Part shown: positions 750 through 43,464 of the stretch, piece after piece
Layout: each line of letters starts with the position of its first letter
Numbering within the stretch: the first letter of the stretch is position 1
Assembly: GCA_014843695.1 (NCBI GenBank)
Contig: CM026393.1
Coordinates: 3,814,615 to 3,878,614, forward strand
Direction: 5' to 3'
DNA length: 64,000 bases
DNA from: Archivesica marissinica
Taxonomy: Eukaryota; Mollusca; Bivalvia; Venerida; Vesicomyidae
Program-made: the position numbers and the translations under genes
The notes under the pieces: generated by a model
The model's input: the letters and a program-made list of their open reading frames with translations, nothing else
Told to the model about the DNA's origin: nothing
Database searches by the model: none

Positions 750-3700
750 ATTTGTGTGTACTGTTTGCAGATGAGATGCAATATAAATTGTGTGTATGGT
801 CTGCAGATGAGGTGCAATATAAATTGTGTGTACTGTTTGCAGATGAGATGCAATATAAATTGTTTGTACTGTTTGCAGATGAGATGCAATATAAATTGTT
901 TGTACTGTTTGCAGATGAGATGCAATATAAATTGTTTGTACTGTTTGCAGATGAGATGCAATATAAATTGTTTGTACTGTTTGCAGATGAGATGCAATAT
1001 AAATTGTGTGTACTGTTTGCAGATGAGATGCAATATAAATTGTTTGTACTGTTTGCAGATGAGATGCAATATAAATTGTTTGTACTGTTTGCAGATGAGA
1101 TGCAATATAAATTGTGTGTACTGTTTGCAGATGAGATGCAATATAAATTGTGTGTACTGTTTGCAGACGAGATGCAATATAAATTGTGTGTACTGTTTGC
1201 AGATGAGATGCAATATAAATTGTGTGTACTGTTTGCAGATGAGATGCAATATAAATTGTGTGTACTGTTTGCAGATGAGATGCAATATAAATTGTTTGTA
1301 CTGTTTGCAGATGAGATGCCACATAAATTGTTTGTACTGTTTGCAGATGAGATGCAATATAAATTGTTTGTACTGTTTGCAGATGAGATGCAACATAAAT
1401 TGTGTGTACTGTCTGCAGATGAGATGCAACATAAATTGTGTGTACTGTTTGCAGATGAGATGCAATATAAATTGTTTGTACTGTTTGCAGATGAGATGCA
1501 ATATAAATTGTTTGTACTGTTTGCAGATGAGATGCAATATAAATTGTGTGTACTGTTTGCAGATGAGATGCAATATAAATTGTTTGTACTGTTTGCAGAT
1601 GAGATGCAATATAAATTGTTTGTACTGTTTGCAGATGAGATGCAATATAAATTGTGTGTACTGTTTGCAGATGAGATGCAATATAAATTGTGTGTACTGT
1701 TTGCAGACGAGATGCAATATAAATTGTGTGTACTGTTTGCAGATGAGATGCAATATAAATTGTGTGTACTGTTTGCAGATGAGATGCAATATAAATTGTT
1801 TGTACTGTTTGCAGATGAGATGCCACATAAATTGTTTGTACTGTTTGCAGATGAGATGCAATATAAATTGTGTGTACTGTTTGCAGATGAGATGCAATAT
1901 AAATTGTTTGTACTGTTTGCAGATGAGATGCAACATAAATTGTGTGTACTGTCTGCAGATGAGATGCAACATAAATTGTGTGTACTGTTTGCAGATGAGA
2001 TGCAATATAAATTGTTTGTACTGTTTGCAGATGAGATGCAATATAAATTGTTTGTACTGTTTGCAGATGAGATGCAATATAAATTGTGTGTACTGTTTGC
2101 AGATGAGATGCAATATAAATTGTTTGTACTGTTTGCAGATGAGATGCAACATAAATTGTGTGTACTGTCTGCAGATGAGATGCAACATAAATTGTGTGTA
2201 CTGTTTGCAGATGAGATGCAATATAAATTGTGTGTACTGTTTGCAGACAAGATGCCACATAAATTGTGTGTACTGTTTGCAGACGAGATGCCACATAAAT
2301 TGTGTGTACTGTTTGCAGACGAGATGCAATATAAATTGTGTGTATGGTTTGTAGATGAGATGCCACATAAATTGAGTGTATGGTTTGCAGACGAGATGCC
2401 ACATAAATTGAGTGTATGGTTTGCAGACGAGATGCAACATAAATTGAGTGTATGGTTTGCAGACGAGATGCAACATAAATTGTGTGTACTGTTTGCAGAT
2501 GAGATGCCACATAAATTGAGTGTATGGTTTGCAGACGAGATGCCACATAAATTGTGTGTACTGTCTGCAGATGAGATGGCACATAAATTGTGTGTACTGT
2601 TTGCAGATGAGATGCCACATAAATTGTGTGTATGGTTTGCAGACGAGATGCCACATAAATTGAGTGTATGGTTTGCAGACGAGATGCCACATAAATTGTG
2701 TGTACTGTCTGCAGACGAGATGCCACATAAATTGAGTGTATGGTTTGCAGACGAGATGCAACATAAATTGAGTGTATGGTTTGCAGACGAGATGCAACAT
2801 AAATTGTGTGTACTGTTTGCAGATGAGATGCAATATAAATTGTTTGTACTGTTTGCAGATGAGATGCCACATAAATTGTGTGTACTGTCTGCAGATGAGA
2901 TGCAACATAAATTGTGAGTACTGTTTGCAGATGAGATGCAATATAAATTGTTTGTACTGTTTGCAGATGAGATGCAACATAAATTGTGTGTACTGTCTGC
3001 AGATGAGATGCAACATAAATTGTGTGTACTGTTTGCAGATGAGATGCAATATAAATTGTGTGTACTGTTTGCAGATACCACATAAATTGTGTGTACTGTT
3101 TGCAGACGAGATGCCACATAAATTGTGTGTACTGTTTGCAGACGAGATGCAATATAATTGTGTGTATGGTTTGTAGATGAGATGCCACATAAATTGAGTG
3201 TATGGTTTGCAGACGAGATGCCATAAATTGAGTGTATGGTTTGCAGACAAGATGCCACATAAATTGTGTGTACTGTTTGCAGATGAGATGCCACATAAAT
3301 TGAGTGTATGGTTTGCAGACGAGATGCCACATAAATTGTGTGTACTGTCTGCAGATGAGATGGCACATAAATTGTGTGTACTGTTTGCAGATGAGATGCC
3401 ACATAAATTGTGTGTATGGTTTGCAGACGAGATGCCACATAAATTGAGTGTATGGTTTGTGCAGACGAGATGCCACATAAATTGAGTGTATGGTTTGCAG
3501 ACGAGATGCACATAAATTGAGTGTATGGTTTGCAGACAGATGCAACATAAATTGTGTGTACTGTTTGCAGATGAGATGCAATAAATTGATATGGTTTGCA
3601 GAGAGATGCCACATAAATTGTGTGTACTGTCTGCAGATGAGATGACATAAATTGTGGTACTGTTTGCAGATGAGATGCAATAAATGACAGACGAGATGCC

Positions 3701-6700
3701 ACATAAATTGTGTGTACTGTCTGCAGACGAGATGCCACATAAATTGAGTGTATGGTTTGCAGACGAGATGCCACATAAATTGAGTGTATGGTTTGCAGAC
3801 GAGATGCAACATAAATTGTGTGTACTGTTTGCAGACGAGATGCAATATAAATTGTTTGTACTGTTTGCAGATGAGATGCCACATAAATTGTGTGTACTGT
3901 CTGCAGATGAGATGCAACATAAATTGTGAGTACTGTTTGCAGATGAGATGCAATATAAATTGTTTGTACTGTTTGCAGATGAGATGCAACATAAATTGTG
4001 TGTACTGTCTGCAGATGAGATGCAACATAAATTGTGTGTACTGTTTGCAGATGAGATGCAATATAAATTGTGTGTACTGTTTGCAGACAAGATGCCACAT
4101 AAATTGTGTGTACTGTTTGCAGACGAGATGCCACATAAATTGTGTGTACTGTTTGCAGATGAGATGCAATATAAATTGTGTGTATGGTTTGTAGATGAGA
4201 TGCCACATAAATTGAGTGTATGGTTTGCAGACGAGATGCCACATAAATTGAGTGTATGGTTTGCAGACGAGATGCAACATAAATTGAGTGTATGGTTTGC
4301 AGACGAGATGCCACATAAATTGTGTGTACTGTTTGCAGATGAGATGCCACATAAATTGAGTGTATGGTTTGCAGACGAGATGCACATAAATTGTGTGTAC
4401 TGTCTGCAGATGAGATGGCACATAAATTGTGTGTACTGTTTGCAGATGAGATGCCACATAAATTGTTGTAGTTTGCAGACGAGATGCCACATAAATTGAG
4501 TGTAGTTTGCAGACGAGATGCCACATAAATTGGTGTAGTTGGAGAGATGCCACATAAAACAAAACCACAAAAAACAAACAATAAATTGTGTGTACTGTTT
4601 GCAGACGAGATGCAAATAAATTGGTGTATGGTTTGCAGACGATGCCACATAAATTGGTGTACTGCAGACGAGATGCAACATAAATTGTGTGTACTGTTTG
4701 CAGATGAGATGCCACATAAATTGAGTGTATGGTTTGCAGACGAGATGCCACATAAATTGAGTGTATGGTTTGCAGACGAGATGCAACATAAATTGTGTGT
4801 ACTGTTTGCAGATGAGATGCCACATAAATTGGTGTAGTTGCAGAGAATGCCCACATAAATTGTGTGTACTGTCTGCAGACGAGATGCCACATAAATTGAG
4901 TGTATGGTTTGCAGACGAGATGCCACATAAATTGAGTGTATGGTTTGCAGACGAGATGCAACATAAATTGTGTGTACTGTTTGCAGACGAGATGCAATAT
5001 AAATTGTTTGTACTGTTTGCAGATGAGATGCCACATAAATTGTGTGTACTGTCACTGTTTGCAGATGAGATGCAATATAAATTGTTTGTACTGTTTGCAG
5101 ATGAGATGCAACATAAATTGTGTGTACTGTTTGCAGACGAGATGCAACATAAATTGTGTGTACTGTTTGCAGACGAGATGCCACAAAAGTTGCAGAAATC
5201 AATAATTGGTGTAGTTTGCAGACAGATGCACATAAATTGTGTGTACTGTTTGCAGATGAGATGCAATATAAATTGTGTGTACTGTTTGCAGACAAGATAC
5301 CACATAAATTGTGTGTACTGTTTGCAGACGAGATGCCACATAAATTGTGTGTACTGTTTGCAGACGAGATGCAATATAAATTGTGTGTATGGTTTGTAGA
5401 TGAGATGCCACATAAATTGAGTGTATGGTTTGCAGACGAGATGCCACATAAATTGAGTGTATGGTTTGCAGACAAGATGCCACATAAATTGTGTGTACTG
5501 TTTGCAGATGAGATGCCACATAAATTGAGTGTATGGTTTGCAGACGAGATGCCACATAAATTGTGTGTACTGTCTGCAGATGAGATGGCACATAAATTGT
5601 GTGTACTGTTTGCAGATGAGATGCCACATAAATTGTGTGTATGGTTTGCAGACGAGATGCCACATAAATTGAGTGTATGGTTTGCAGACGAGATGCCACA
5701 TAAATTGTGTGTACTGTCTGCAGACGAGATGCCACATAAATTGAGTGTATGGTTTGCAGACGAGATGCCACATAAATTGAGTGTATGGTTTGCAGACGAG
5801 ATGCAACATAAATTGTGTGTACTGTTTGCAGACGAGATGCAATATAAATTGTTTGTACTGTTTGCAGATGAGATGCCACATAAATTGTGTGTACTGTCTG
5901 CAGATGAGATGCAACATAAATTGTGAGTACTGTTTGCAGATGAGATGCAATATAAATTGTTTGTACTGTTTGCAGATGAGATGCAACATAAATTGTGTGT
6001 ACTGTCTGCAGATGAGATGCAACATAAATTGTGTGTACTGTTTGCAGATGAGATGCAATATAAATTGTGTGTACTGTTTGCAGACAAGATGCCACATAAA
6101 TTGTGTGTACTGTTTGCAGACGAGATGCCACATAAATTGTGTGTACTGTTTGCAGATGAGATGCAATATAAATTGTGTGTATGGTTTGTAGATGAGATGC
6201 CACATAAATTGAGTGTATGGTTTGCAGACGAGATGCCACATAAATTGAGTGTATGGTTTGCAGACGAGATGCAACATAAATTGAGTGTATGGTTTGCAGA
6301 CGAGATGCCACATAAATTGTGTGTACTGTTTGCAGATGAGATGCCACATAAATTGAGTGTATGGTTTGCAGACGAGATGCCACATAAATTGTGTGTACTG
6401 TCTGCAGATGAGATGGCACATAAATTGTGTGTACTGTTTGCAGATGAGATGCCACATAAATTGTGTGTATGGTTTGCAGACGAGATGCCACATAAATTGA
6501 GTGTATGGTTTGCAGACGAGATGCCACATAAATTGTGTGTACTGTCTGCAGACGAGATGCCACATAAATTGAGTGTATGGTTTGCAGACGAGATGCCACA
6601 TAAATTGAGTGTATGGTTTGCAGACGAGATGCAACATAAATTGTGTGTACTGTTTGCAGACGAGATGCCACATAAATTGAGTGCATGGTTTGCAGATGAG

Positions 6701-9700
6701 ATGCCACATAAATTGAGTGTATGGTTTGCAGACGAGATGCAACATAAATTGTGTGTACTGTTTGCAGACGAGATGCAATATAAATTGTGTGTACTGTTTG
6801 CAGACAAGATGCCACATAAATTGTGTGTACTGTTTGCAGACGAGATGCCACATAAATTGTGTGTACTGTTTGCAGACGAGATGCAATATAAATTGTGTGT
6901 ATGGTTTGTAGATGAGATGCCACATAAATTGAGTGTATGGTTTGCAGACGAGATGCCACATAAATTGAGTGTATGGTTTGCAGACGAGATGCAACATAAA
7001 TTGAGTGTATGGTTTGCAGACGAGATGCCACATAAATTGTGTGTACTGTTTGCAGATGAGATGCCACATAAATTGAGTGTATGGTTTGCAGACGAGATGC
7101 CACATAAATTGTGTGTACTGTCTGCAGATGAGATGGCACATAAATTGTGTGTACTGTTTGCAGATGAGATGCCACATAAATTGTGTGTATGGTTTGCAGA
7201 CGAGATGCCACATAAATTGAGTGTATGGTTTGCAGACGAGATGCCACATAAATTGTGTGTACTGTCTGCAGACGAGATGCCACATAAATTGAGTGTATGG
7301 TTTGCAGACGAGATGCCACATAAATTGAGTGTATGGTTTGCAGACGAGATGCAACATAAATTGTGTGTACTGTTTGCAGACGAGATGCCACATAAATTGA
7401 GTGTATGGTTTGCAGATGAGATGCCACATAAATTGAGTGTATGGTTTGCAGACGAGATGCAACATAACTGTTTGCAGACGAGATGCCACATAAATTGTGT
7501 GTACTGTTTGCAGACGAGATGCCACATAAATTGAGTGTATGGTTTGCAGACGAGATGCAACATAAATTGTGTGTACTGTTTGCAGATGAGATGCCACATA
7601 AATTGTGTGTACTGTTTGCAGACGAGATGCCACATAAATTGTGTGTACTGTTTGCAGATGAGATGCCACATAAATTGTGTGTACTGTTTGCAGATGAGAT
7701 GCCACATAAATTGTGTGTATGGTTTGCAGACGAGATGCCACATAAATTGTGTGTACTGTCTGCAAAACACATAAACAACAAACAAAAAAAAACACAAAAT
7801 TGTGTGTACTGTTTGCAGACGAGATGCAATATAAATTGTTGTACTGTTTGCAGATGAGATGCCACATAAATTGTGTGTACTGTCTGCAGACGAGATGCAA
7901 CATAAATTGTGAGTACTGTTTGCAGATGAGATGCAATATAAATTGTGTGTACTGTTTGCAGATGAGATGCAACATAAATTGTGTGTACTGTCTGCAGATG
8001 AGATGCAACATAAATTGTGTGTACTGTTTGCAGATGAGATGCAATATAAATTGTGTGTACTGTTTGCAGACAGATGCCACATAAATTGTGTGTACTGTTT
8101 GCAGACGAGATGCCACATAAATTGTGTGTATGGTTTGCAGACGAGATGCAATATAAATTGTGTGTATGGTTTGTAGATGAGATGCCACATAAATTGAGTG
8201 TATGTTTGCAGACGAGATGCCACATAAATTGAGTGTATGGTTTGCAGACGAGATGCAACGAGATGCACATAAATTGTGTGTAGACGAGATGCCACATAAA
8301 TTGTGTGTACTGTCTGCAGATGAGATGCCACATAAATTGAGTGTATGGTTTGCAGACGAGATGCACATAAATTGTGTGTACTGTCTGCAGATGAGATGGC
8401 ACATAAATTGTGTGTACTGTTTGCAGATGAGATGCCACATAAATTGTGTGTATGGTTTGCAGATGAGAGCAATAAAAGTGTGTGTACAGAAGATGCAAAA
8501 AGTGTGACTGTTTGCAGACGAGATGCAACATAAATTGTGTGTACTGTTTGCAGACGAGATGCCACATAAATTGTGTGTACTGTTTGCAGACGAGATTGTG
8601 TGTACTGTTTGCAGACGAGATGCCACATAAATTGGTGGAATAAATTGTGTGTACTGTTTGCAGACGAGATGCAATATCAGATTGTGTGTAACTGTTTGCA
8701 GACAGATGCAATAAATTGTGTGTACTGTTTGCAGATGAGATGCAATATAAATTGTGTGTACTGTTTGCAGATGAACAAAAATTTGTACTGCAGATGAGAT
8801 GCAATATAAATTGTGTGTACGGTTTGCAGACGAGATGCAATATAAATTGTGTGTACTGTTTGCAGATGAGATGCAACATAAATTGTGTGTACTGTTTGCA
8901 GACAAGATGCAATAAATTGTGTGTACTGTTTGCAGACGAGATGCCACATAAATTGTGTGTACTGTTTGCAGACGAGATGCAATTGGTTTGCAGAGAGATG
9001 CAATAAATTGTGTGTACTGTTTGCAGACGAGATGCCACAAAATTGAGTGTAGTTTGCAGACGAGATGCCACATAAATTGAGTGTATGGTTTGCAGACGAG
9101 ATGCAACATAAATTGTGTGTACTGTTTGCAGATGAGATGCCACATAAATTGAGTGTATGGTTTGCAGACGAGATGCCACATAAATTGTGTGTACTGTCTG
9201 CAGATGAGATGGCACATAAATTGTGTGTACTGTTTGCAGATGAGATGCCACATAAATTGTGTGTATGGTTTGCAGACGAGATGCCACATAAATTGAGTGT
9301 ATGGTTTGCAGACGAGATGCAACATAAATTGTGTGTACTGTTTGCAGACGAGATGCCACATAAATTGAGTGTATGGTTTGCAGATGAGATGCCACATAAA
9401 TTGAGTGTATGGTTTGCAGACGAGATGCAACATAAATTGTGTGTACTGTTTGCAGACGAGATGCCACATAAATTGTGTGTACTGTTTGCAGACGAGATGC
9501 CACATAAATTGAGTGTATGGTTTGCAGACGAGATGGCACATAAATTGTGTGTACTGTCTGCAAATGAGATGCCACATAAATTGTGTGCATGGTTTGCAGA
9601 CGAGATGCAACATAAATTGTGTGTATGGTTTGAAGATGAGATGCCACATAAATTGTGTGTACTGTTTGCAGACGAGATGCCACATAAATTGTGTGTACTG

Positions 9701-10988
9701 TTTGCAGACGAGATGCCACATAAATTGTGTGTACTGTTTGCAGACGAGATGCCACATAAATTGAGTGTATGGTTTGCAGACGAGATGGCACATAAATTGT
9801 GTGTACTGTCTGCAAATGAGATGCCACATAAATTGTGTGCATGGTTTGCAGACGAGATGCAACATAAATTGTGTGTATGGTTTGAAGATGAGATGCCACA
9901 TAAATTGTGTGTACTGTTTGCAGACGAGATGCCACATAAATTGTGTGTACTGTTTGCAGACGAGATGCCACATAAATTGTGTGTACTGTCTGCAGACGAG
10001 ATGCAATATAAATTGTGTGTATGGTTTGTAGATGAGATGGCACATAAATTGTGTGTACTGTTTGCAGACGAGATGCCACATAAATTGTGTGTACTGTTTG
10101 CAGACGAGATGCCACATAAATTGTGTGTACTGTCTGCAGACGAGATGCAATATAAATTGTGTGTATGGTTTGAAGATGAGATGCCACATAAATTGTGTGT
10201 ACTGTTTGCAGACGAGATGCCACATAAATTGTGTGTACTGTTTGCAGACGAGATGCCACATAAATTGTGTATACTATCTGCAGACGAGATGCAATATAAA
10301 TTGTGTGTATGGTTTGTAGATGAGATGGCACATAAATTGTGTGTACTGTTTGCAGACGAGATGCCACATAAATTGTGTGTACTGTCTGCAGACGAGATGC
10401 AACATAAATTGTGTGTACTGTTTGCAGACGACATGCCACATAAATTGTGTGTATGGTTTGAAGATGAGATGCCACATAAATTGTGTGTACTGTTTGTAGA
10501 TGAGATGCAACATAAATTGTGTGTATGGTTTGTAGATGAGATGGCACATAAATTGTGTGTACTGTTTGCAGATGAGATGCCACATAAAGTGTGTGTACTG
10601 TTTGCAGATGAGATGCAATATAAAGTGTGTGTACTGTTTGCAGATGAGATGCAATATAAATTGTGTGTACTGTTTGCAGATGAGGTGCAATATAAATTGT
10701 GTGTACTGTCTGCAGATGAGATGCCACATAAATTGTGTGTACTGTTTGCAGATGAGGTGCAATATCAATTGTGTGTACTGTTTGCAGATGAGATGCAATA
10801 TAAAGTGTGTGTACTGTCTGCAGATGAGATGCCACATAAATTGTGTGTACTGTTTGCAGATGAGGTGCAATATAAATTGTGTGTACTGTTTGCAGATGAG
10901 ATGCAATATAAATTGTGTGTACGGTTTGCAGACGAGATGCAATATAAATTGTGTGTACGGTTTGCAGACGAGATGCAATATAAATTGT
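750..10988. repeat. 36-bp minisatellite, about 280 copies
   Basis: Tandem units of 36 bp built around TGTACTGTTTGCAGATGAG and ATGCAATATAAATT. Common variants read CCACATAAATTGAG, GTATGG for GTACTG, and GACGAG for GATGAG. Because 36 is divisible by three, several frames stay open for thousands of bases; these are not genes. The left part (750-2270) is homogeneous. The centre is a mosaic of higher-order blocks: a 252-bp (7-unit) block is exactly duplicated near 9513 and 9765, and a 720-bp (20-unit) period appears near 6056 and 6776. Damaged stretches with indels lie near 3540-3700, 4380-4870, 7760-7850, 8070-8290 and 8460-9060. The array sits downstream of OAT exon 11588-11726, so probably in an OAT intron. 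Confidence 0.97.
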
Positions 10989-11069: not shown

Positions 11070-11222
11070 ATCTGAGATTTTAAACAATTACCCAGGTGTA
11101 GAACCACCAACCGTCTGCAAGTCAGCTGGCTAGCTTCCCCACAGTAAATAATTTAACGAACCCAGTGGATTCGAACCTACAGTGGTGAACCACAAAGGCC
11201 CCTTACAGACTAGGTTGCAAAT
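11070..11222 (-). mobile_element. tRNA-derived SINE (third family)
   Basis: On the minus strand a box-B-like GGTTCGAATCC is followed by AAGCTAGCCAGCTGACTTGCA and GGTTGGTGGTTCTACACC. The plus-strand copy at 38400-38590 has the matching core (AAGCTATCCAATCGACTTGCA, then GGTGGTTGTACCCGGG). It lies between the 36-bp array and the exon-derived 22-bp array, inside an OAT intron. Confidence 0.55.
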
Positions 11223-11223
11223 G

Positions 11224-11587
11224 AACAAATCTTACTTTCATCAATAACAAATCTTACTTTCATCTATAACAAATCTTACTTTCATCTATAACATATCTTA
11301 CTTTCATCAATAACAAATCTTACTTTTATCTATAACATATCTTACTTTAATCTATAACATATCTTACTTTCATCTATAACAAATCTTACTTTTATCTATA
11401 ACATACCTTACTTTTATCTATAACATATCTTACTTTAATCTATAACATATCTTACTTTCATCAATAACAAATCTTACTTTTATCTATAACATATCTTACT
11501 TTCATCTATAACATATCTTACTTTCATCTATAACATATCTTACTTTCATCTATAACATATCTTACTTTCATCTATAACATATCTTAC
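11224..11587 (-). repeat. 22-bp minisatellite made of an OAT exon end plus its 5' splice site
   Basis: Read on the minus strand, the OAT exon ends ATAGATAAAA and the intron begins GTAAGATATGTT. These 22 nt (10 exonic, 12 intronic) are then repeated head to tail. The plus strand shows 17 donor copies at an even 22-bp spacing (CTTAC at 11231, 11253 and so on to 11583). All keep GTAAG; one reads GTAAGG. The first copy is the native splice site and the other 16 are extra. Unit variants are mostly ATAGATGAAA or ATTGATGAAA. Confidence 0.93.
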
Positions 11588-11726
11588 TTTTATCTATGAC
11601 AATGGCATTGAGAAGTCCTTTCCCTCTAACCAGTTTGACACGGTCCTTGGGTAGCAGGTTCAACTCCTTCCGCAGGATGTGGCCCAGTCTCTCTGCATTC
11701 TCGGCCAGCTTTTCTTCCTCCAATAC
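11588..11726 (-). CDS. OAT: Ornithine aminotransferase, third visible exon
   Basis: OAT is a mitochondrial PLP enzyme of aminotransferase class III. It converts ornithine and 2-oxoglutarate to glutamate semialdehyde and glutamate. This 139-nt exon (46 codons plus 1 nt) encodes [20 protein letters not shown], followed by a stretch with [14 protein letters not shown]. It closely matches the part of animal OAT that follows the PLP-phosphate loop (VLEEEN-LAENA-KLG and [12 protein letters not shown] in the human protein). The acceptor is AATGTGTCAG before V and the donor is GTAAGA at 11587. The phase is 0 in and 1 out, and it joins the exon at 13147-13260 in frame. The donor and last 10 exonic bases are copied 16 times downstream. 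The following exon(s), carrying the FAPPL region of OAT, are not in the window. Confidence 0.95.
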
Positions 11727-12594
11727 CTGACACATTAGATGCAATGTAAACCCTACTTCTGCTAACATTTTCATGAACCAATGATCCACATTCAATTTGG
11801 ATCAGTCCATTTTACCACAACAGAAAGGGGTGTTTTGCAGAATAACTGTTGAAATAGTTTGTAGTTTAAGCAATTCTTCACATTTATTACATTATTACTA
11901 CAATAAATTTATATAGATATACCAGTAGAAGTGCAGAGGTATAATGGAATGTGTAGGTAGATGGTTCAGCCTGGGAACAGGCGTCGATATAATTCGCCTG
12001 GTCAGTCAAATAAATATATTTTAACACCGAGACAATTAATTGGGCTGTATTGAGGTTCTGATAATATCAACTCTTAGGGAAACTCGACGGGTTTTCTGTA
12101 TAATTATTGATTATGCAATGTTGATCAATTTTTATAATTGGCCTACATTGTTTACGGGTCAAAGGAACGATAAATAGTTTTAAAAAGTACAATGTGCATC
12201 TGATTTGACATATTTACTGATGATTTAAGTCGTCCTTAGTTCAATTACGCCGAATCGACCCTCTACCACCTAAACGTAATAGTTAAAATCCACCATCTCG
12301 TAGATATAACACAGAAACGGGCAATGATATGTAAATGAGGCTATGGGAGCATTCGTGTATATTCGGAAATGATCGTGCATAATCGTGTCTGTTTGGCGAT
12401 TTCCGATAGAATTCCGTTTCTATATTTAGCGATAATATATTGTAGAGAAGAGTTGTCATTCTTCAAATCTACACACTGAAAAATTAGGGTGTAAGTAAAT
12501 GGCGCTACGATCGGAAATCAAGTTTCCCCAGGCTGTCATTTTGCCAGAAGTTAAAAAGTGAAATCGACAGACTGGAACCCAGGGCTAGTAGAGG
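11727..12594. other. OAT intron, unique part
   Basis: Left part of the 1420-nt intron between the OAT exons at 13147-13260 and 11588-11726. It is AT-rich with no repeat array and no recognisable transposon. I see no further exon in it. Confidence 0.7.
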
Positions 12595-13146
12595 TTGTCT
12601 GTTTGCCCTAACTAGGTACAGTAGACAACAGCGGATTTCCATTGTACATTGAGCCGTGTTCCCCTGGCCTGATTGTCATAATAAATTACCTTAAGAGATT
12701 TCATAGCTACGGTACATGACAGAGGGTTTCCTCCGTACGTTGAGCCGTGTTCCCCCGGCCGGATTGTCATAATAAATTACTGTAAGGGGCCGGATTGTCA
12801 TAATAAATTACTTTAAGAGATTCCATAGCTACGGTACATGACAGAGGGTTTCCTCCGTACGTTGAGCCGTGTTCCCCCGGCCGGATTGTCATAATAAATT
12901 ACTTTAAGAGATTCCATAGCTACGGTACATGACAGAGGGTTTCCTCCGTACGTTGAGCCGTGTTCCCCCGGCCGGATTGTCATAATAAATTACTGTAAGG
13001 GGCCGGATTGTCATAATAAATTACCTTAAGAGATTCCATAGCTACGGTACATGACAGAGGGTTTCCTCCGTACGTTGAGCCGTGTTCCCCCGGCCGGATT
13101 GTCATAATAAATTACTGTAAGGGGCCGGATTGTCATAATAAATTAC
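12595..13146 (-). repeat. 91/122-bp minisatellite made of OAT exon plus its 5' splice site
   Basis: On the minus strand the unit is the last 81 nt of the OAT exon (from ATGACAATCCGG to CTTAAG) plus 10 nt of intron (GTAATTTATT). In most units an extra 31-bp block, GTAATTTATT-ATGACAATCC-GGCCCCTTACA, follows. Donors (AATTAC on the plus strand) sit at 13141 (native), 13110, 13019, 12988, 12897, 12806, 12775 and 12684, so the spacings are only 31 or 91. The copy furthest from the exon (about 12595-12683) is clearly diverged, which suggests it is the oldest. None of the copies has its own acceptor. Confidence 0.93.
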
Positions 13147-13260
13147 CTTAAGAGATTCCATAGCTACGGTACATGACAGAGGGTTTCCTCCGTACGTTGA
13201 GCCGTGTTCCCCCGGCCGGATTGTCATCATCACAACATCATCAGCAAGAACGGCCGACAC
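13147..13260 (-). CDS. OAT: Ornithine aminotransferase, second visible exon
   Basis: The exon is 114 nt, exactly 38 codons, phase 0 at both ends. It encodes [27 protein letters not shown], then [11 protein letters not shown]. The human counterpart is VSAVLCDDDIM followed by the same [11 protein letters not shown] segment, which in OAT structures contributes PLP-phosphate contacts across the dimer interface. The acceptor is ACATTCAG at 13261 and the donor is AAG/GTAATT at 13147/13146. It follows the PLP-lysine exon and precedes the VLEEEK exon with no gap in the protein alignment. The last 81 nt and the donor are tandemly amplified in the intron just downstream. Reading through the native donor meets TGA after about 14 codons, so use of the distal donors would truncate the enzyme. 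Confidence 0.96.
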
Positions 13261-13390
13261 CTGAATGTATCAAAACAACAAACATTAGGTTACATATCAA
13301 CATCAATAAAACAAACCAATCGGCAACCTTCTTCAGTAAGTATATAAGATGGAAATATTATTGGAGCACAACCGATTCTATAGCACTATA

Positions 13391-13587
13391 TAGTTTATAT
13401 AAATTTATTTTAACTCAATTGCGAAACAAGTTCTTATAACTTATATTAATCACTCTTGAGACCTGATGAAATCCATCGCCACGAGGGAGAGAAGAGGCAT
13501 GTGGAATTTCAGCGGGGCTCGAACTCTGGGCCTAACCCACATGAAGCGAACGCGCTACCACTGAGCTATCACGACTTGTATATTGTA
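13391..13587 (-). mobile_element. tRNA-derived SINE with 12-bp target-site duplication
   Basis: On the minus strand the head reads GTCGTGATAGCTCAGTGG (box A) and GAGTTCGAGCCCCG (box B). The body has CCTCTTCTCTCCCTCGTGG and the tail GATTAATATAAGTTA, then CGCAATTGAG. Identical 12-bp direct repeats TATAGCACTATA flank it at 13379-13390 and 13588-13599. It belongs to the same family as the copy at 35423-35661. It inserted in the OAT intron just downstream of the exon-derived 59-bp array. Confidence 0.88.
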
Positions 13588-13610
13588 TATAGCACTATAC
13601 ATATGCTTTA

Positions 13611-14086
13611 ACTTACCTGCAGGACTCCCTGGGAGAGAGCTTTACCAAGAATCAACAAGTCTTGCTATAACTTACCTGCAGGACTCCACGGGAGAAAGCT
13701 TAATCAAGAATCAACAAGTCTTGCTTTAACTTACAGGCATGACTCCACCGGAGAAAGCTTTACCAAGAATCAACAAGTCTTGCTATAACTTACAGGCAGG
13801 ACTCCACCGGAGAGAGCTTTACCAAGAATCAACAAGTCCTGCTATAACTTACAGGCAGGACTCCACGGGAGAAAGCTTTACCAAGGATCAACAAGTCGTG
13901 CTATAACTTACAGGCAGGATTCGCCGGGAGAGCTTTACCAAGAATCAACAAGTCTTGCTATAACTTACAGGCAGGACTCCACGGGAGAGAGCTTTACCAA
14001 GAATCAACAAGTCTTGCTATAACTTACAGGCAGGACTCCACCGGAGAGAGCTTTACCAAGAATCAACAAGTCTTGCTATAACTTAC
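13611..14086 (-). repeat. 59-bp minisatellite made of the OAT PLP-lysine exon end plus its 5' splice site
   Basis: Each unit on the minus strand is 45 nt of exon (15 codons, [16 protein letters not shown]) plus 14 nt of intron (GTAAGTTATAGCAA). Nine donors (ACTTAC on plus) lie at 14081 (native), 14022, 13963, 13906, 13847, 13788, 13729, 13670 and 13611. All keep a perfect GTAAGT. The last codon before the donor is CCG in the native exon, CCT in most copies and CAG in the two most distal. Eight extra copies of the peptide with the catalytic lysine therefore exist as DNA. Confidence 0.95.
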
Positions 14087-14165
14087 CGGAAGGACTCCAC
14101 CGGAGAGAGCTTTACCAAGAATCAACATGTCTGGCTTCACATTCTCATGATCTACAGCCAATCTC
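14087..14165 (-). CDS. OAT: Ornithine aminotransferase, exon with the PLP-lysine
   Basis: The exon is 79 nt (1 nt completing a codon plus 26 codons). It encodes [13 protein letters not shown], then [13 protein letters not shown]. Animal OAT has [27 protein letters not shown] here. The lysine of GKALSGG is the residue that forms the Schiff base with pyridoxal phosphate (Lys292 in human OAT). The acceptor is ACATTATTGCAG at 14166 and the donor GTAAGT at 14086. The exon continues in frame into the one at 13147-13260. The upstream exons, including the DEIQTG motif that should come immediately before, are not found between here and 28 kb. They may lie in the gap or elsewhere. Retention past the donor gives VSYSKTC and a TGA stop. 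Confidence 0.96.
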
Positions 14166-14449: not shown

Positions 14450-17400
14450 TTCCCTCATAGAAGCACCTCGTGACGCCATTACCAATACTTTCCCTCATAG
14501 AAGCACCTCGTGACGCCATTACCAATACTTTCCCTCATAGAAGCACCTCGTGACGCCATTACCAATACTTTCCCTCATAGAAGCACCTCGTGACGCCATT
14601 ACCAATACTTTCCCTCATTAGAAGCACCCACCCAACCAAACCCCAAAACACCCACCCAACCAAACCCCAAGAAGCACTCGTGACGCCATTACCAATACTT
14701 TCCCTCATAGAAGCACCTCGTGACGCCATTACCATACTTTCCCTCATAGAAGCACCTCGTGACGCCATTACCAATACTTTCCCTCATAGAAGCCCTCGTG
14801 ACGCATTACCAATACTTTCCCTCATAGAAGCACCTCGTGACGCCATTACCAATACTTTCCCTCATAGAAGCACCTCGTGACGCCATTACCAATACTTTCC
14901 CTCATAGAAGCACCTCGTGACGCCATTACCAATACTTTCCCTCATAGAAGCACCTCGTGACGCCATTACCAATACTTTCCCTCATGAAGCACCTCGTGAC
15001 GCCATTACCAATACTTTCCCTCATAGAAGCACCTCGTGACGCATTACCAATACTTTCCCTCATAGAAGCACCTCGTGACGCCATTACCAATACTTTCCCT
15101 CATAGAAGCACCTCGTGACGCCATTACCAATACTTTCCCTTCCCTCATGAAGCACCTCGTGACGCCATTACCATACTTTTCCTCATGAAGCACCTCGTGA
15201 CGCCATTACAATACTTTCCCTCATGAAGCACCTCGTGACGCCATTACCAATACTTTCCCTCATAGAAGCACCTCGTGACGCCATTACCAATACTTTCCCT
15301 CATGAAGCACCTCTTGACGCCATTACCAATACTTTCCTCCTAGAAGCACCTCGTGACGCCATTACCAATACTTTCCCTCATAGAAGCACCTCGTGACGCC
15401 ATTACCAATACTTTCCCTCATGAAACACCTCTTGACGCCATTACCAATACTTTCCCTCATGAAGCACCTCGTGACGCCATTACCAATACTTTCCCTCATG
15501 AAGCACCTCGTGACGCCATTACCAATACTTTCCCTCATAGAAACACCTCGTGACGCCATTACCAATACTTTCCCTCATAGAAGCACCTCGTGACGCCATT
15601 ACCAATACTTTTCCCTCATAGAAGCACCTCGTGACGCCATTACCAATACTTTCCCTCATAGAAGCACCTCGTGACGCCATTACCAATACTTTCCCTCATA
15701 GAAGCACCTCTTGACGCCATTACCAATACTTTCCCTCATAGAAGCACCTCGTGACGCCATTACCAATACTTTCCCTCATAGAAGCACCTCGTGACGCCAT
15801 TACAAAACTTTCCCTCATAGAAGCACCTCTTGACGCCATTACCAATACTTTCCCTCATAAAGCAGCACCTCGTGACGCCATTACCAATACTTTCCCCATA
15901 GAAGCACCTCGTGACGCCATTACCAATACTTTCCCTCATGAAGCACCTCTTGACGCCATTACCAATACTTTCCCTCATAGAAGCACCTCGTGACGCCATT
16001 ACCAATACTTTCCCTCATAGAAGCACCTCGTGACGCCATTACCAATACTTTCCCTCATAGAAGCACTCTTGACGCCATTACCAATACTTTCCCTCATGAA
16101 GCACCTCGTGACGCCATTACCAATACTTTCCCTCATAGAAGCACCTCGTGACGCCATTACCAATACTTTCCCTCATAGAAGCAACCTCGTGACGCCATTA
16201 CCATACTTTCCCTCATAGAAGCACCCGTGACGCCATTACCAATACTTTCCCTCATGAAGCACCTCGTGACGCCATTACCAATACTTTCCCTCATGAAGCA
16301 CCTCGTGACGCCATTACCAATACTTTCCCTCATGAAGCACCTCGTGACGCCATTACCAATACTTTCCCTCATAGAAGCACCTCGTGACGCCATTACCAAT
16401 ACTTTCCCTCATAGAAGCACCTCGTGACGCCATTACCAATACTTTCCCTCATAGAAGCAGCACCTCTGACGCCATTACCAATACTTTCCCTCATAGAAGC
16501 ACCCTCGTGACGCCATTACCAATACTTTCCTCATAGAAGCACCTCGTGACGCCATTACCAATACTTCCCTCATAGAAGCACCTCTTGACGCCATTACCAA
16601 TACTTTCCCTCATAGAAGCACCTCTTGACGCCATTACAATACTTTCCCTCATAGAAGCACCTCGTTGACGCCATTACCAATACTTTCCCTCATGAAGCAC
16701 CTCGTGACGCCATTACCAATACTTTCCCTCATAGAAGCACCTCGTGACGCCATTACCAATACTTTCCCTCATAGAAGCACCTCGTGACGCCATTACCAAT
16801 ACTTTCCCTCATAGAAGCACCTCGTGACGCCATTACCAATACTTTCCCTCATAGAAGCACCTCGTGACGCCATTACCAATACTTTCCCTCATAGAGCACT
16901 CGTGACGCCATTACCAATACTTTCCCTCATGAAGCACCTCTGACGCCATTACCAATACTTTCCCTCATAGAAGCCCTCGTGACGCCATTACCAATACTTT
17001 CCCTCATAGAAGCACCTCGTGACGCCATTACCAATACTTTCCCTCATAGAAGCACCTCGTGACGCCATTACCAATACTTTCCCTCATAGAAGCACCTCGT
17101 GACGCCATTACCAATACTTTCCCTCATAGAAGCACCTCGTGACGCCATTACCAATACTTTCCCTCATAGAAGCACCTCGTGACGCCATTACCAAACTTTC
17201 CCTCATAGAAGCACCTCTTGACGCCATTACCAATACTTTCCCTCATGAAGCACCTCTTGACGCCATTACCAATACTTTCCCTCATGAAGCACCTCGTGAC
17301 GCCATTACCAATACTTTCCCTCATGAAGCACCTCGTGACGCCATTACCATACTTTCCCTCATGAAGCACCTCGTGACGCCATTACCAATACTTTCCCTCA

Positions 17401-20086
17401 TAGAAGCACCTCGTGACGCCATTACCAATACTTTCCCATAGAAGCACTCGTGACGCCATTACCAATACTTTCCCTCATAGAAGCAGCACCTCTTGACGCC
17501 ATTACCAATACTTTCCCTCATAGAAGCACCTCTTGACGCCATTACCAATACTTTCCCTCATAGAAGCACCTCTTGACGCCATTACCAATACTTTCCTCAT
17601 AGAAGCACCTCTTGACGCCATTACCAATACTTTCCCTCATAGAAGCACCTCTTGACGCCATTACCAATACTTTCCCTCCCTCATAGAAGCACCTCGTGAC
17701 GCCATTACCAATACTTTCCTCATGAAGCACCTCTTGACGCCATTACCAATACTTTCCCTCATAGAAGCACCTCGTGACGCCATTACCAATACTTTCCCTC
17801 ATAGAAGCACCTCGTGACGCCATTACCAATACTTTCCCTCATAGAAGCACCTCGTGACGCCATTACCAATACTTTCCTCATGAAGCACCTCGTGACGCCA
17901 TTACCAATACTTTCCTCCCTCATGAAGCACCTCGTGACGCCATTACCATACTTTCCTCATGAAGCACCTCGTGACGCCATTACCAATACTTTCCCTCATA
18001 GAAGCACCTTTGACGCCATTACCAATACTTTCCCTCATAGAAGCACCTCGTGACGCCATTACCAATACTTTCCCATAGAAAGCACCTCTTGACGCCATTA
18101 CCAATACTTTCCCTCATAGAAGCACCTCTTGACGCCATTACCAATACTTCCCTCATAGAAGCAACCTCTTGACGCCATTACCAATACTTTCCCTCATAGA
18201 AGCACCTCTTGACGCCCATTACCATACTTTCCCTCATAGAAGCACCTCTTGACGCCATTACCAATACTTTCCCTCATAGAAGCACCTCTTGACGCCATTA
18301 CCAATACTTTCCCTCATAGAAGCACCTCTTGACGCCATTACCAATACTTTCCCCTCATAGAAGCACCTCTTGACACCATTACCATACTTTCCCTCATAGA
18401 AGCACCTCTTGACGCCATTACCAATACTTTCCCTCATAGAAGCACCTCTTGACGCCATTACCAATACTTTCCCTCATAGAAGCACCTCTTGACGCCATTA
18501 CCAATACTTTCCCTCATAGAAGCACCTCTTGACGCCATTACCATACTTTCCCTCATAGAAGCACCTCTTGACGCCATTACCAATACTTTCCCTCATAGAA
18601 GCACCTCTTGACCCCATTACCAAACTTTCCCCATAGAAGCACCTCTTGACGCCATTACCAATACTTTCCCTCATAGAAGCACCTCTTGACGCCATTACCA
18701 ATACTTTCCCTCATAGAAGCACCTCTTGACGCCATTACCATACTTTCCCTCATAGAAGCACCTCTTGACGCCATTACCAATACTTTCCCTCATAGAAGCA
18801 CCTCTTGACGCCATTACCAATACTTTCCCTCATAGAAGCACCTCTTGACGCCATTACCAATACTTTCCCTCATAGAAGCACCTCGTGACGCCATTACCAA
18901 TACTTTCCCTCATAGAAGCACCTCGTGACGCCATTACCAATACTTTCCCTCATAGAAGCACCTCTTGACGCCATTACCAATACTTTCCCTCATAGAAGCA
19001 CCTCGTGACGCCATTACCAATACTTTCCCTCATAGAAGCACCTCGTGACGCCATTACCAATACTTTCCCTCATAGAAGCACCTCGTGACGCCATTACCAA
19101 TACTTTCCCTCATAGAAGCACCTCGTGACGCCATTACCAATACTTTCCCTCATAGAAGCACCTCGTGACGCCATTACCAATACTTTCCCTCATAGAAGCA
19201 CCTCGTGACGCCATTACCAATACTTTCCCTCATAGAAGCACCTCGTGACGCCATTACCAATACTTTCCCTCATAGAAGCACCTCGTGACGCCATTACCAA
19301 TACTTTCCCTCATAGAAGCACCTCGTGACGCCATTACCAATACTTTCCCTCATAGAAGCACCTCGTGACGCCATTACCAATACTTTCCCTCATAGAAGCA
19401 CCTCGTGACGCCATTACCATACTTTCCCTCATAGAAGCACCTCTTGACGCCATTACCAATACTTTCCCTCATAGAAGCACCTCGTGACGCCATTACCAAT
19501 ACTTTCCCTCATAGAAGCACCTCGTGACGCCATTACCAATACTTTCCCTCATAGAAGCACCTCGTGACGCCATTACCAATACTTTCCCTCATAGAAGCAC
19601 CTCGTGACGCCATTACCAATACTTTCCCTCATAGAAGCACCTCGTGACGCCATTACCAATACTTTCCCTCATAGAAGCACCTCGTGACGCCATTACCAAT
19701 ACTTTCCCTCATAGAAGCACCTCGTGACGCCATTACCAATACTTTCCCTCATAGAAGCACCTCGTGACGCCATTACCAATACTTTCCCTCATAGAAGCAC
19801 CTCGTGACGCCATTACCAATACTTTCCCTCATAGAAGCACCTCGTGACGCCATTACCAATACTTTCCCTCATAGAAGCACCTCGTGACGCCATTACCAAT
19901 ACTTTCCCTCATAGAAGCACCTCGTGACGCCATTACCAATACTTTCCCTCATAGAAGCACCTTGTGACGCCATTACCAATACTTTCCCTCATAGAAGCAC
20001 CTCGTGACGCCATTACCAATACTTTCCCTCATAGAAGCAGCACCTCGTGACGCCATTACCAATACTTTCCCTCATAGAAGCACCTC
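14450..20086. repeat. 40-bp minisatellite, about 140 copies, running into the gap
   Basis: The unit is TTCCCTCATAGAAGCACCTC plus GTGACGCCATTACCAATACT. A CTCTTGACG variant dominates between about 17460 and 18880. Many units have single-base drop-outs (ACCATACT, CATGAAGC) from 15 to 18.7 kb, whereas 18.8-20.0 kb is almost perfect. The array begins 4 bp after a TTAA, exactly as the single-copy TTAA element at 35909 does, so the unit is probably the terminal ~40 bp of such an element. A foreign CCCACCCAACCAAACCCC block duplicated at 14625-14672 looks like an assembly defect. Confidence 0.95.
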
Positions 20087-21086
20087 NNNNNNNNNNNNNN
20101 NNNNNNNNNNNNNNNNNNNNNNNNNNNNNNNNNNNNNNNNNNNNNNNNNNNNNNNNNNNNNNNNNNNNNNNNNNNNNNNNNNNNNNNNNNNNNNNNNNNN
20201 NNNNNNNNNNNNNNNNNNNNNNNNNNNNNNNNNNNNNNNNNNNNNNNNNNNNNNNNNNNNNNNNNNNNNNNNNNNNNNNNNNNNNNNNNNNNNNNNNNNN
20301 NNNNNNNNNNNNNNNNNNNNNNNNNNNNNNNNNNNNNNNNNNNNNNNNNNNNNNNNNNNNNNNNNNNNNNNNNNNNNNNNNNNNNNNNNNNNNNNNNNNN
20401 NNNNNNNNNNNNNNNNNNNNNNNNNNNNNNNNNNNNNNNNNNNNNNNNNNNNNNNNNNNNNNNNNNNNNNNNNNNNNNNNNNNNNNNNNNNNNNNNNNNN
20501 NNNNNNNNNNNNNNNNNNNNNNNNNNNNNNNNNNNNNNNNNNNNNNNNNNNNNNNNNNNNNNNNNNNNNNNNNNNNNNNNNNNNNNNNNNNNNNNNNNNN
20601 NNNNNNNNNNNNNNNNNNNNNNNNNNNNNNNNNNNNNNNNNNNNNNNNNNNNNNNNNNNNNNNNNNNNNNNNNNNNNNNNNNNNNNNNNNNNNNNNNNNN
20701 NNNNNNNNNNNNNNNNNNNNNNNNNNNNNNNNNNNNNNNNNNNNNNNNNNNNNNNNNNNNNNNNNNNNNNNNNNNNNNNNNNNNNNNNNNNNNNNNNNNN
20801 NNNNNNNNNNNNNNNNNNNNNNNNNNNNNNNNNNNNNNNNNNNNNNNNNNNNNNNNNNNNNNNNNNNNNNNNNNNNNNNNNNNNNNNNNNNNNNNNNNNN
20901 NNNNNNNNNNNNNNNNNNNNNNNNNNNNNNNNNNNNNNNNNNNNNNNNNNNNNNNNNNNNNNNNNNNNNNNNNNNNNNNNNNNNNNNNNNNNNNNNNNNN
21001 NNNNNNNNNNNNNNNNNNNNNNNNNNNNNNNNNNNNNNNNNNNNNNNNNNNNNNNNNNNNNNNNNNNNNNNNNNNNNNNNNNNNNN
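20087..21086. other. Assembly gap of 1000 N
   Basis: Exactly 1000 N, the usual placeholder for a scaffold join of unknown size. It separates the 40-bp array from the ACTG microsatellite, so the true distance between OAT and glass is unknown. Confidence 0.99.
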
Positions 21087-25552: not shown

Positions 25553-25900
25553 CGATTGAGGTGAACCTGCCCGCCCGAGGTGAGCCCGTCGCCCGAGGTG
25601 AGCCTGCCCATCCGAGGTGAGCATGCCCGCCGCCCGATGTGAACCTGCCCATCCGAGATGAGCCTGCCCGCCGCCCGAGGTGATGCCCATCCGAGGTGAG
25701 GATGCCCGCCGCCCGAGGTGAGGATGCCCGCCGCCCGTGGTGAGCATGCCCGCCCCAGGTGAGCCTGCCCGCACCAGGTGAGCATGCCCGCCGTCCAAGG
25801 TGAGCCTGCCCGCCGCCCGAGATGAGCCTGTCCGCCGCCCGAGGTGAGCCTGCCCGCTCGAGGTGAACCTGCCCATCCGAGGTGAGCGTCGCCCGAGGTG
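25553..25900. repeat. GC-rich short tandem repeat carrying donor-like motifs
   Basis: Irregular units of roughly 18-24 bp built from GCCCGAGGTGAGCCTGCCC. About a dozen copies include GAG/GTGAGC, a good match to a 5' splice-site consensus on the glass-coding strand. It lies about 2.1 kb upstream of the first recognised glass exon. No exon is evident at its border. Confidence 0.85.
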
Positions 25901-26880
25901 AGGTTTGCGCCCAGACGTGAAATAGGTCACTCACATATAGAGGATTGTGCCCAGACGTGCAATAGGTCACTCACATATAGAGGCTTGTGCCCAGACGTGG
26001 AATAAGTCACTCACATATAGAGGCTTGTACCCAGACGTGCAATAGGTCACTCACATATAGAGGTTTGAGCTCAGACGTGCAATATGCCAGTCACACATAG
26101 AGGCTTGAGCCCAGACGTGAAATAGGTCACTCACATATAGAGGATTGTGCCCAGACGTGCAATAGGTCACTCACATATAGAGGCTTGTACCCAGACGTGC
26201 AATAGGTCACTCACATATAGAGGCTTGTACCCAGACGTGCAATAGGTCACTCACATATAGAGGCTTGTACCCAGACGTGCAATAGGTCACTCACATATAG
26301 AGGCTTGAGCCCAGGCGTGCAATAGGTCACTCACATATAGAGGTTTGAGCCCAGACGTGCAATATGCCAGTCACACATAGAGGCTTGAGCCCAGACGTGC
26401 AATATGTCACTCACACATAGAGGCTTGAGCCCAGACGTGGAATAAGTCACTCACATATAGAGGCTTGAGCGCAGACCTGCAATATGTCACTCACATATAG
26501 AGGCTTGAGCCCAGACGTGCAATATGTCACTCACACATAGAGGCTTGAGCCCAGACGTGGAATAAGTCACTCACATATAGAGGCTTGAGCCCAGACCTGC
26601 AATATGTCACTCACATATAGAGGTTTGAGCCCAGACGTGCAATATGTCACTCACATATAGAGGCTTGAGCCCAGACGTGGAATATGTCACTCACACATAG
26701 AGGCTTGAGCCCAGACGTGGAATAAGTCACTCACATATAGAGGCTTGAGCCCAGACGTGCAATATGTCACTCACATATAGAGGCTTGAGCCCAGACGTGC
26801 AATATGTCACTCACATATAGAGGCTTGAGCCCAGACGTGCAATATGTCACTCACATATAGAGGCTTGAGCCCAGACATGT
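25901..26880. repeat. 40-bp minisatellite, about 25 copies
   Basis: The unit is GCCCAGACGTGCAATAGGTC plus ACTCACATATAGAGGCTTGA. Variants are TATGTC for TAGGTC and TTGTAC for TTGAGC. It is unrelated to the 40-bp array at 14450-20086. Confidence 0.95.
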
Positions 26881-42180: not shown

Positions 42181-42365
42181 CAACTGAATGAGGCAATGCA
42201 GTCCAAATACTCAGAAGTTACGATTTTTGCAGACCAGGTTACAAATTGTAATAACTATGATATCAGTGGTGCTATATTTTTGTTAGCGCACTGATAACTG
42301 TTCGTGTTCAAGCAAGTTCTCGCAAATCCGTCAACTATTCTAAAAACGTTTCTTTTTCATTTTAG

Positions 42366-43464
42366 AGAATTTACCGTCTTCAAAGACAAGCCAAACCACG
42401 ACGTCACCGACGCACTTCTTTCATTAAAGAACGCGGTTGTGCATCCTTCATTTGGAAGTCAGCTGTCGCCGCTCTCGCCGGCAATGCATCTTGGTCCTTT
42501 GAACCCTGGTGGCTTGGGAAACCATGGTCAGCAAGCATTGGCGTACACTGTAAATCATGGAGGTCAAGTTCACCCGATGAGTTATACCGGAAGGGGAAGT
42601 CCCCAGTATCCATCAGTGCACGCTCAGATTCACGGTGAACATATCAATCCGCCGCAGCACAGCATGTTTCCGGCGATGAGTGTTAATGTGTCAATGAGCA
42701 TGAATGTAGTTCCCCCCAATTTTGGAAACAATACGTGCAACCCTGTTCAACAATGGCAGTCGACATCTCAACATTATAACATGGGTCAAGAATACCAGCA
42801 TAGTCCCCAGGAATCGACGTTTCAATCCCAGTATAGCCCATATTCTCAGAACTATCACCCTCAACATTATTCCTTCTCGTCTGATTTCCGGACTGGAGTT
42901 TCCGACAACCGCGGTTTCTACTATAAAATGGCAGACGACTTCAGAGGAGGACCAAGATATTACTCTCCAAATCAATTCAAGCGCGGAAAATTCATCGATG
43001 ACAAACCACTTCATCTAGCACACAGCCCGGATTCTTCAAAAATCAACTTGTGTCGAATCTGCGGGAAAACATATGCGAGACCGAGTACACTAAAAACTCA
43101 CTTACGTACTCATTCTGGGGAAAAGCCTTACAAATGTAACGCATGTAACAAGTCATTTTCACAAGCAGCTAATCTAACTGCACACTCGCGGACTCACAGC
43201 GGAGAGAAACCGTTTCATTGCCCGGTCTGCGACCGCCATTTCTCCCAGAGTTCCTCAGTAACGACACACATGCGCACACACAGTGGTGAGCGTCCTTATC
43301 GATGTCGTCTGTGTAAAAAGGCGTTCTCAGACAGTTCAACGCTGACCAAACACTTGAGGATTCACAGCGGAGAGAAACCTTACCAATGTAAGCTCTGTTT
43401 GTTACGCTTCTCTCAGAGTGGGAACTTAAACAGACACATGCGTGTACATTCCAGCAATGGCTGA
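42366..43464 (+). CDS. gl: Glass-like C2H2 transcription factor, terminal exon
   Basis: Ortholog of Drosophila Glass, the zinc-finger factor needed for photoreceptor differentiation; in other animals it is expressed in eyes and other neurons. Joined to the exon at 28044 it gives 424 residues, against about 600 in Drosophila. The N-terminal region is rich in His, Gln, Ser and Pro. It keeps two short Glass-type motifs, [14 protein letters not shown] (near residue 159) and YSFSSDFR (near 227). Five C2H2 fingers follow at about 288-308, 316-336, 344-364, 372-392 and 400-420. They include [32 protein letters not shown] and [18 protein letters not shown], almost identical to Drosophila Glass. Only four residues follow the last finger. 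The open frame extends upstream to 42304, but the first 21 codons are intron. The acceptor is at 42364-42365 and the stop TGA at 43462. Confidence 0.96.

Follow-up and report, generated by a model that had tools for sequence, protein, structure and literature searches.

Three consecutive exons of the gene for ornithine aminotransferase (OAT) in the clam Archivesica marissinica each end in a minisatellite that runs across the exon's own splice donor, which raises the question whether donors themselves give birth to such arrays or whether arrays born anywhere are simply tolerated there. The exons, called A, B and C, lie on the minus strand of the window, i.e. the whole 64,000-nt stretch of DNA that was analysed (G000:C8:3814615-3878614, in an assembly of 1.54 Gb and 2808 contigs). 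An earlier note on this sequence had raised a mechanism tied to donors, and its interpretation is partly supported: the arrays are probably neutral survivors of a very high and largely position-blind rate of minisatellite birth, and the donor-tied mechanism is possible but unproven (P 0.003-0.04 against the background, 0.17 at the window's own rate). The exons, and the arrays as delimited by Tandem Repeats Finder (TRF), are given below, a slash marking the exon end.

14087 to 14165, minus strand: OAT exon A, native donor CCG/GTAAGT at 14086
13604 to 14136, minus strand: array A (TRF), 59-bp unit of 45 nt of the end of exon A and 14 nt of intron, 9 donor copies
13147 to 13260, minus strand: OAT exon B (VSAVLADDVV...AMESLK), native donor AAG/GTAATT at 13146
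12644 to 13227, minus strand: array B (TRF, several overlapping rows), 91-bp unit of 81 nt of the end of exon B and 10 nt of intron
11588 to 11726, minus strand: OAT exon C (...LNAIVIDK), native donor AAA/GTAAGA at 11587
11224 to 11601, minus strand: array C (TRF), 22-bp unit of 10 nt of the end of exon C and 12 nt of intron, 17 donor copies

The spliced product of A, B and C has 110 amino acids, of which residues 2-109 (108 of 110) align without gaps to residues 239-346 of human OAT, and each exon matches, one by one, the OAT of Mactra antiquata (P0121) in tblastn. Among the named proteins, those closest to the OAT of the window are from Mactra antiquata, Mya arenaria, Dreissena polymorpha and Ruditapes philippinarum, all of which I take to be heterodont bivalves, as by its OAT the clam presumably is too.

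In each array the units run head-to-tail, and the first one consists of the native exon end with the native donor. The numbers in the earlier note hold: the exon/intron content per unit is indeed 45/14, 81/10 and 10/12 nt, and the 9, 8 and 17 donor copies all keep the GT and the donor core (34 of 34), with an 18th GTAAG at 11206 that is part of no unit. One donor spacing in array A is 57 instead of 59, and array B is made up of 5 copies of the 91-bp unit and 3 shortened 31-bp units, which together hold its 8 donor copies, beside a degenerate outermost copy without donor (tblastn match 12682-12617, minus strand). This outermost copy is far more diverged than the others, yet protein is still readable there, as if it were an old exon duplicate that preceded the recent array. 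The 7 full-length extra copies of array A that were compared (the 57-nt copy was left out) all share two substitutions absent from the native copy, and 5 of these 7 have a weakened base at position -1; similarly, 3 of the 4 extra copies seen in L047, a chaperonin array listed below, have in common an insertion absent from the exon. Such shared changes indicate that the arrays expanded from an already derived copy while the native one stayed fixed. Relatives elsewhere in the genome would be expected of a dispersed satellite that had landed at exon ends; among 40 scored candidates, with very frequent words skipped, no second copy of array A came up, and only a neighbouring short interspersed nuclear element (SINE) recurs.

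If the reading frame is continued beyond the first donor, a stop follows after 7 (A), 14 (B) and 6 (C) codons; the second donor of array B precedes the stop, and its use would shift the frame by 31 nt. Intact OAT should need splicing at the first donors, and the extra copies should be intronic, because first-donor splicing gives an uninterrupted OAT. Recurrent intron gain at this gene was rejected, as no codon is gained or lost where exons A, B and C meet: the likeness to intron gain by tandem duplication lies in a duplication across a gene boundary that supplies splice sites, but OAT needs no new intron and joins over old ones.

The earlier note had known of no class of repeats of this kind, but minisatellites do sit at functional donors of the human genes IFI6, CBS and ABCA7. 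Turri et al. in 1995 reportedly described the IFI6 minisatellite with its multiple splice donors, Lievers et al. in 2001 are said to be the reference for the 31-bp variable number tandem repeat (VNTR) of CBS, and CBS is not known to contain another array of this kind. The CBS VNTR, c.1444_1467+7, has 16-21 tandem copies across the donor (PMC2630376); the 25-bp VNTR at the exon 18 donor of ABCA7 has about 12-427 units, and mRNA that retains a single unit has been observed (PMC5954066); and the minisatellite of IFI6 (6-16, G1P3) has multiple splice donors, two downstream units being used (PMC4526556; also PMC2572611, PMC2915984). Extra repeat donors can be used, then, in both ABCA7 and IFI6 (PMC5954066, PMC4526556). 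The CBS repeat resembles arrays A-C in having, by its notation, 24 exonic and 7 intronic nt per unit, but it is human and length-polymorphic, whereas the OAT arrays are known from one assembly. The first GT of the ABCA7 array is the native donor, as in OAT; its unit, however, starts at the GT and holds no exonic bases, the nearest case here being L065 (see below). The IFI6 units offer donors like those of OAT, but there the extra donors yield isoforms, whereas in OAT they would bring a stop or a frame shift.

The OAT arrays have what characterises a donor-spanning VNTR, namely head-to-tail units with the donor of a real exon, the native one first, and both exonic and intronic bases (the CBS type); judged by their sequence, they are the same kind of object as the CBS, ABCA7 and IFI6 repeats. 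A limited literature search, which is weak evidence of absence, found no published account of donor-spanning arrays genome-wide or of three per gene. The geometry has human precedents; apparently unreported are so many such arrays in a single genome and a run of three within one gene.

How far the OAT arrays exceed chance depends on the background, here taken as the share of pseudo-donor points that fall in the first unit of an array. Ten 10-kb stretches chosen at round coordinates consist of minisatellites to 3-74%; for the first six 10-kb bins of the window the figure is 48-92%, and for the 164 kb surrounding the locus it is 54%. The background rate was 2.4% in the ten round-coordinate stretches (158 of 6697 points), 3.0% at aminotransferase loci (67/2245), 3.8% at SINE loci (101/2670), 4.1% in the flanks of the OAT locus (203/4912) and 6.3% in the window itself (102/1631). 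Two N-terminal OAT exons, which lie 34-36 kb outside the window, carry no array at their donors, so that arrays stand at 3 of the 5 visible OAT donors. At a rate of 3.2% this has a binomial P of 3e-4, and taken alone the gene has more donor arrays than chance would give. The claim of the earlier note that three events of the same geometry go beyond chance stands as far as the count in this gene, taken alone, is concerned; the geometry is not independent evidence and needs no special mechanism, since any tandem duplication reaching from an exon into the following intron will include the donor, with the native copy in first place. If births were uniform and the genome had 30,000 genes of 8 donors apiece, one would expect three such donors in 4 to 48 genes.

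The arrays of OAT are not a one-off. I sampled exons of three conserved families (CCT chaperonin, aminotransferase and proteasome), a small sample whose boundaries were placed with a donor weight matrix and by eye, and counted a donor or acceptor alike when an array covers at least 2 nt on its exon side. The 7 aminotransferase donors and 7 acceptors were judged from array positions by eye; at L065 both donor and acceptor were likewise placed by eye, as was the donor of L071. Six duplicates (L089-L094, 4 identical and two with 2 and 3 mismatches) were left out before counting, and so were, in the donor count only, 4 CCT places without a donor in range (L059, L063, L064, L072). Outside the sample are 4 of the 57 CCT places (C19:19169516, C10:20574012, C10:20575248 and C18:41774568), each within an open frame of >340 aa, as well as 12 aldehyde dehydrogenase and 150 Ras places; the proteasome is represented by 10 of 20 places, on the donor side only. 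The labels CCT subunit and gamma-aminobutyric acid (GABA) transaminase are presumed. Outside OAT, 6 of 60 donors have a spanning array (CCT 5/43, aminotransferase 1/7, proteasome 0/10), namely:

L031:1631-2208 (G000:C5 near 15.987 Mb): GABA-transaminase-like exon, donor-spanning 25-bp unit (19 + 6 nt), 22-23 copies
L047, L061 and L066: CCT donor arrays with 35, 38 and 59 exonic nt in the unit, respectively
L073 and L065: CCT donor arrays with 4 and 2 exonic nt in the unit, respectively

L030, a paralogue of L031, has no array at the matching donor. L061 and L047 (G000:C8, 10.295 and 10.2995 Mb, with units of 76 and 43 bp) are exons adjacent in the profile and belong to one CCT gene, the second gene with more than one donor array.

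Acceptors outside OAT are spanned in 1 of 54 cases (CCT 1/47, aminotransferase 0/7). The sole spanned acceptor, L074, is covered by 2 nt in a weak 75-bp row of 2.4 copies at 83%, the plain 25-bp row stopping 33 nt upstream of it, and at L067 an array stops 16 nt short of the acceptor (AG at the match start) and hence is not counted. The comparison of donors with acceptors that the earlier note had proposed goes in the predicted direction but is not decisive in other genes (Fisher one-sided P 0.075; 0.019 without the L074 row). With OAT, the discovery locus, included it is 9/65 vs 1/60 (P 0.012), and with at least 8 exonic nt required it is 4/60 donors vs 0/54 acceptors outside OAT (P 0.073). 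The units of the 25-bp array upstream of L074 (L074:1-182, coding strand; G000:C19 near 43.740 Mb) carry TACAGAT, like the acceptor TACAG/AT, and this acceptor perhaps descends from, or seeded, a decayed array.

The final exon of OAT occupies -156 to -314 in window coordinates; the two N-terminal exons sit on the plus strand, at -35.7 and -34.1 kb, on the far side of a 1000-N gap. OAT residues ~105-278 (Mactra numbering) were not found in the 164 kb searched around the locus. A whole-genome search with PF00202 gave 13 places, of which those on C8 are OAT and those on C5 and C10 are, as I take it, other aminotransferases. Further features of the window are two large minisatellites and an open frame, the latter with minisatellites on both sides and none over it:

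14450 to 20086, no strand assigned: 40-bp minisatellite upstream of exon A (TRF), ending at a 1000-N gap (20087-21086)
752 to 10988, no strand assigned: 36-bp minisatellite of 285 copies (TRF), between exon C and the last OAT exon
42298 to 43464, plus strand: C2H2 zinc-finger open frame with terminal stop

Could the arrays be kept because they supply donors? Downstream decoy or spare donors might aid splicing or regulate the level of OAT, and the GT kept in all counted copies, the last two donors of array A (12.7 vs 10.8 for the native one) and the use of downstream repeat units as donors in human IFI6 (PMC4526556) all agree with this. However, the kept donor core, which the earlier note had pointed out, is no more constant than other columns: for the extra copies alone, compared with random columns, P is 0.16 (A), 0.87 (B) and 0.33 (C), within chance in all three, and I rejected it as a sign of selection. 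By the weight matrix, which served for both scoring and boundary placement, many extra donors fall below the native one and most of the others equal it: 6 of the 8 extra copies of array A score 6.9 vs 10.8, 5 of the 7 in array B score 2.3 or 4.2 vs 7.9, and those of L031 mostly 7.3 vs 11.3. The three 31-bp units of array B read ACA/GTAATT and two long units AAA/GTAATT, both weaker than the native AAG/GTAATT. As later donors also introduce a stop or a frame shift, selection for extra donors is very unlikely. Highly improbable, too, is that the arrays were inflated or invented through mis-assembly of repetitive reads. Arrays do abut the 1000-N gaps at 20087..21086 and -31547..-30548, and the contig that they enclose (-30547 to 20086) probably has the wrong orientation in the assembly, because the N-terminal OAT exons lie on the plus strand and the C-terminal ones on the minus strand. 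However, copies within arrays A and C bear distinct substitutions, and arrays recur at unrelated genes and contigs.

A weightier alternative, though a doubtful one, is birth tied to the donor itself, in which U1-bound nascent RNA, R-loops, a paused polymerase or breaks at the junction would raise tandem duplication at exon-intron junctions. The arrays at 3 of 5 OAT donors, the 10% of donors elsewhere vs 2.4-4.1% of random points and the two adjacent exons of the C8 CCT gene speak for it. The proteasome donors, none of ten arrayed, speak against it, as do the lack of significance at the window's own background and the donor-acceptor comparison outside OAT. When the units of 89 arrays in 264 kb were scored for donors, strong motifs were not enriched (score >=7: 6 vs 7.3 expected; >=8: 3 vs 4.0; >=9: 2 vs 2.2), whereas weaker donor-like matches were over-represented (>=6: 18 vs 12.0, P 0.03; >=4: 47 vs 30.9), which counts in favour of donor-tied birth. 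Tandem triplets of AGGTAAGT number 18,724 genome-wide (10306 + 8418) vs 16,162 (6935 + 9227) for the reversed motif, a 1.16-fold difference. Both tests are blunt, as they count per copy and most OAT copies lack AGGTAAGT. Donors as the main source of minisatellites were rejected on the missing enrichment of strong motifs and this small triplet excess, the enrichment of weaker matches notwithstanding. Two nearby arrays with donor-like units (25558-25902 and ~103.4-104.3 kb) contain no exon end by eye. The latter, a 44-bp array on the minus strand of the flank, begins ~35 nt after an apparent exon end, and its units hold an acceptor-like TTTCAG/G and a donor-like GGTG/GTGAGT ~15 nt apart, resembling a repeated micro-exon.

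Neutral survival, the reading I prefer, would work as follows. A short tandem duplication would straddle the 3' end of an exon, the native exon end and donor staying as the first copy; the spliceosome would use this first donor, the whole array would leave with the intron, and the protein would be unchanged. The duplication would therefore be tolerated, and slippage or unequal exchange among the intronic copies could lengthen the array, the first copy being kept unchanged by coding selection. Duplications within exons or across acceptors should more often alter the mRNA and be removed, though few acceptors were sampled. Of this, the geometry, the uninterrupted protein from the first donors and the recurrence at other genes are shown; use of the first donor in RNA, the way of growth, neutrality and removal at acceptors are inferred.

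Some observations weigh against it. The 6 of 60 non-OAT donors (10%) lie above the 2.4-4.1% background (binomial P 0.003-0.037), an excess that is not significant at the window rate of 6.3% (P 0.17); when 8 or more exonic nt are required, 4 of 60 are left and P is 0.03 at the lowest background, 0.07-0.18 at the middle ones and 0.44 at the window rate. Acceptors are not below background (P for 0/54 of 0.10-0.28, and 0.031 at the window rate; P for at most one of 0.14-0.64), so that the predicted removal at acceptors is not shown, the sample being too small. Furthermore, comparing consensus unit lengths, none of the nine donor arrays (OAT A-C, L031, L047, L061, L065, L066 and L073) has a unit divisible by 3, vs 31 of 103 background arrays (P ~0.04), and in-frame unit lengths are possibly disfavoured at donors. 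A high, largely position-blind birth rate together with tolerance at donors explains most of the frequency, and a two- to four-fold donor excess may remain. It seems rather unlikely that donors are hot spots of minisatellite birth in this clam lineage, with transcription- or splicing-coupled duplication two to four times as frequent as elsewhere in the DNA, roughly every tenth exon bearing an array and some genes having several. The donor arrays at about 1 in 10 of the other exon ends examined look like harmless by-products of a genome in which such repeats arise very often.

In humans, the individual examples of minisatellites across a donor are found in genes linked to disease. A genome with perhaps one in ten donors arrayed would be a natural experiment on how the spliceosome chooses the first among near-identical donors, and also on whether exon-intron junctions are fragile sites; and exon ends in minisatellite-rich genomes such as this one will confuse gene prediction and assembly.

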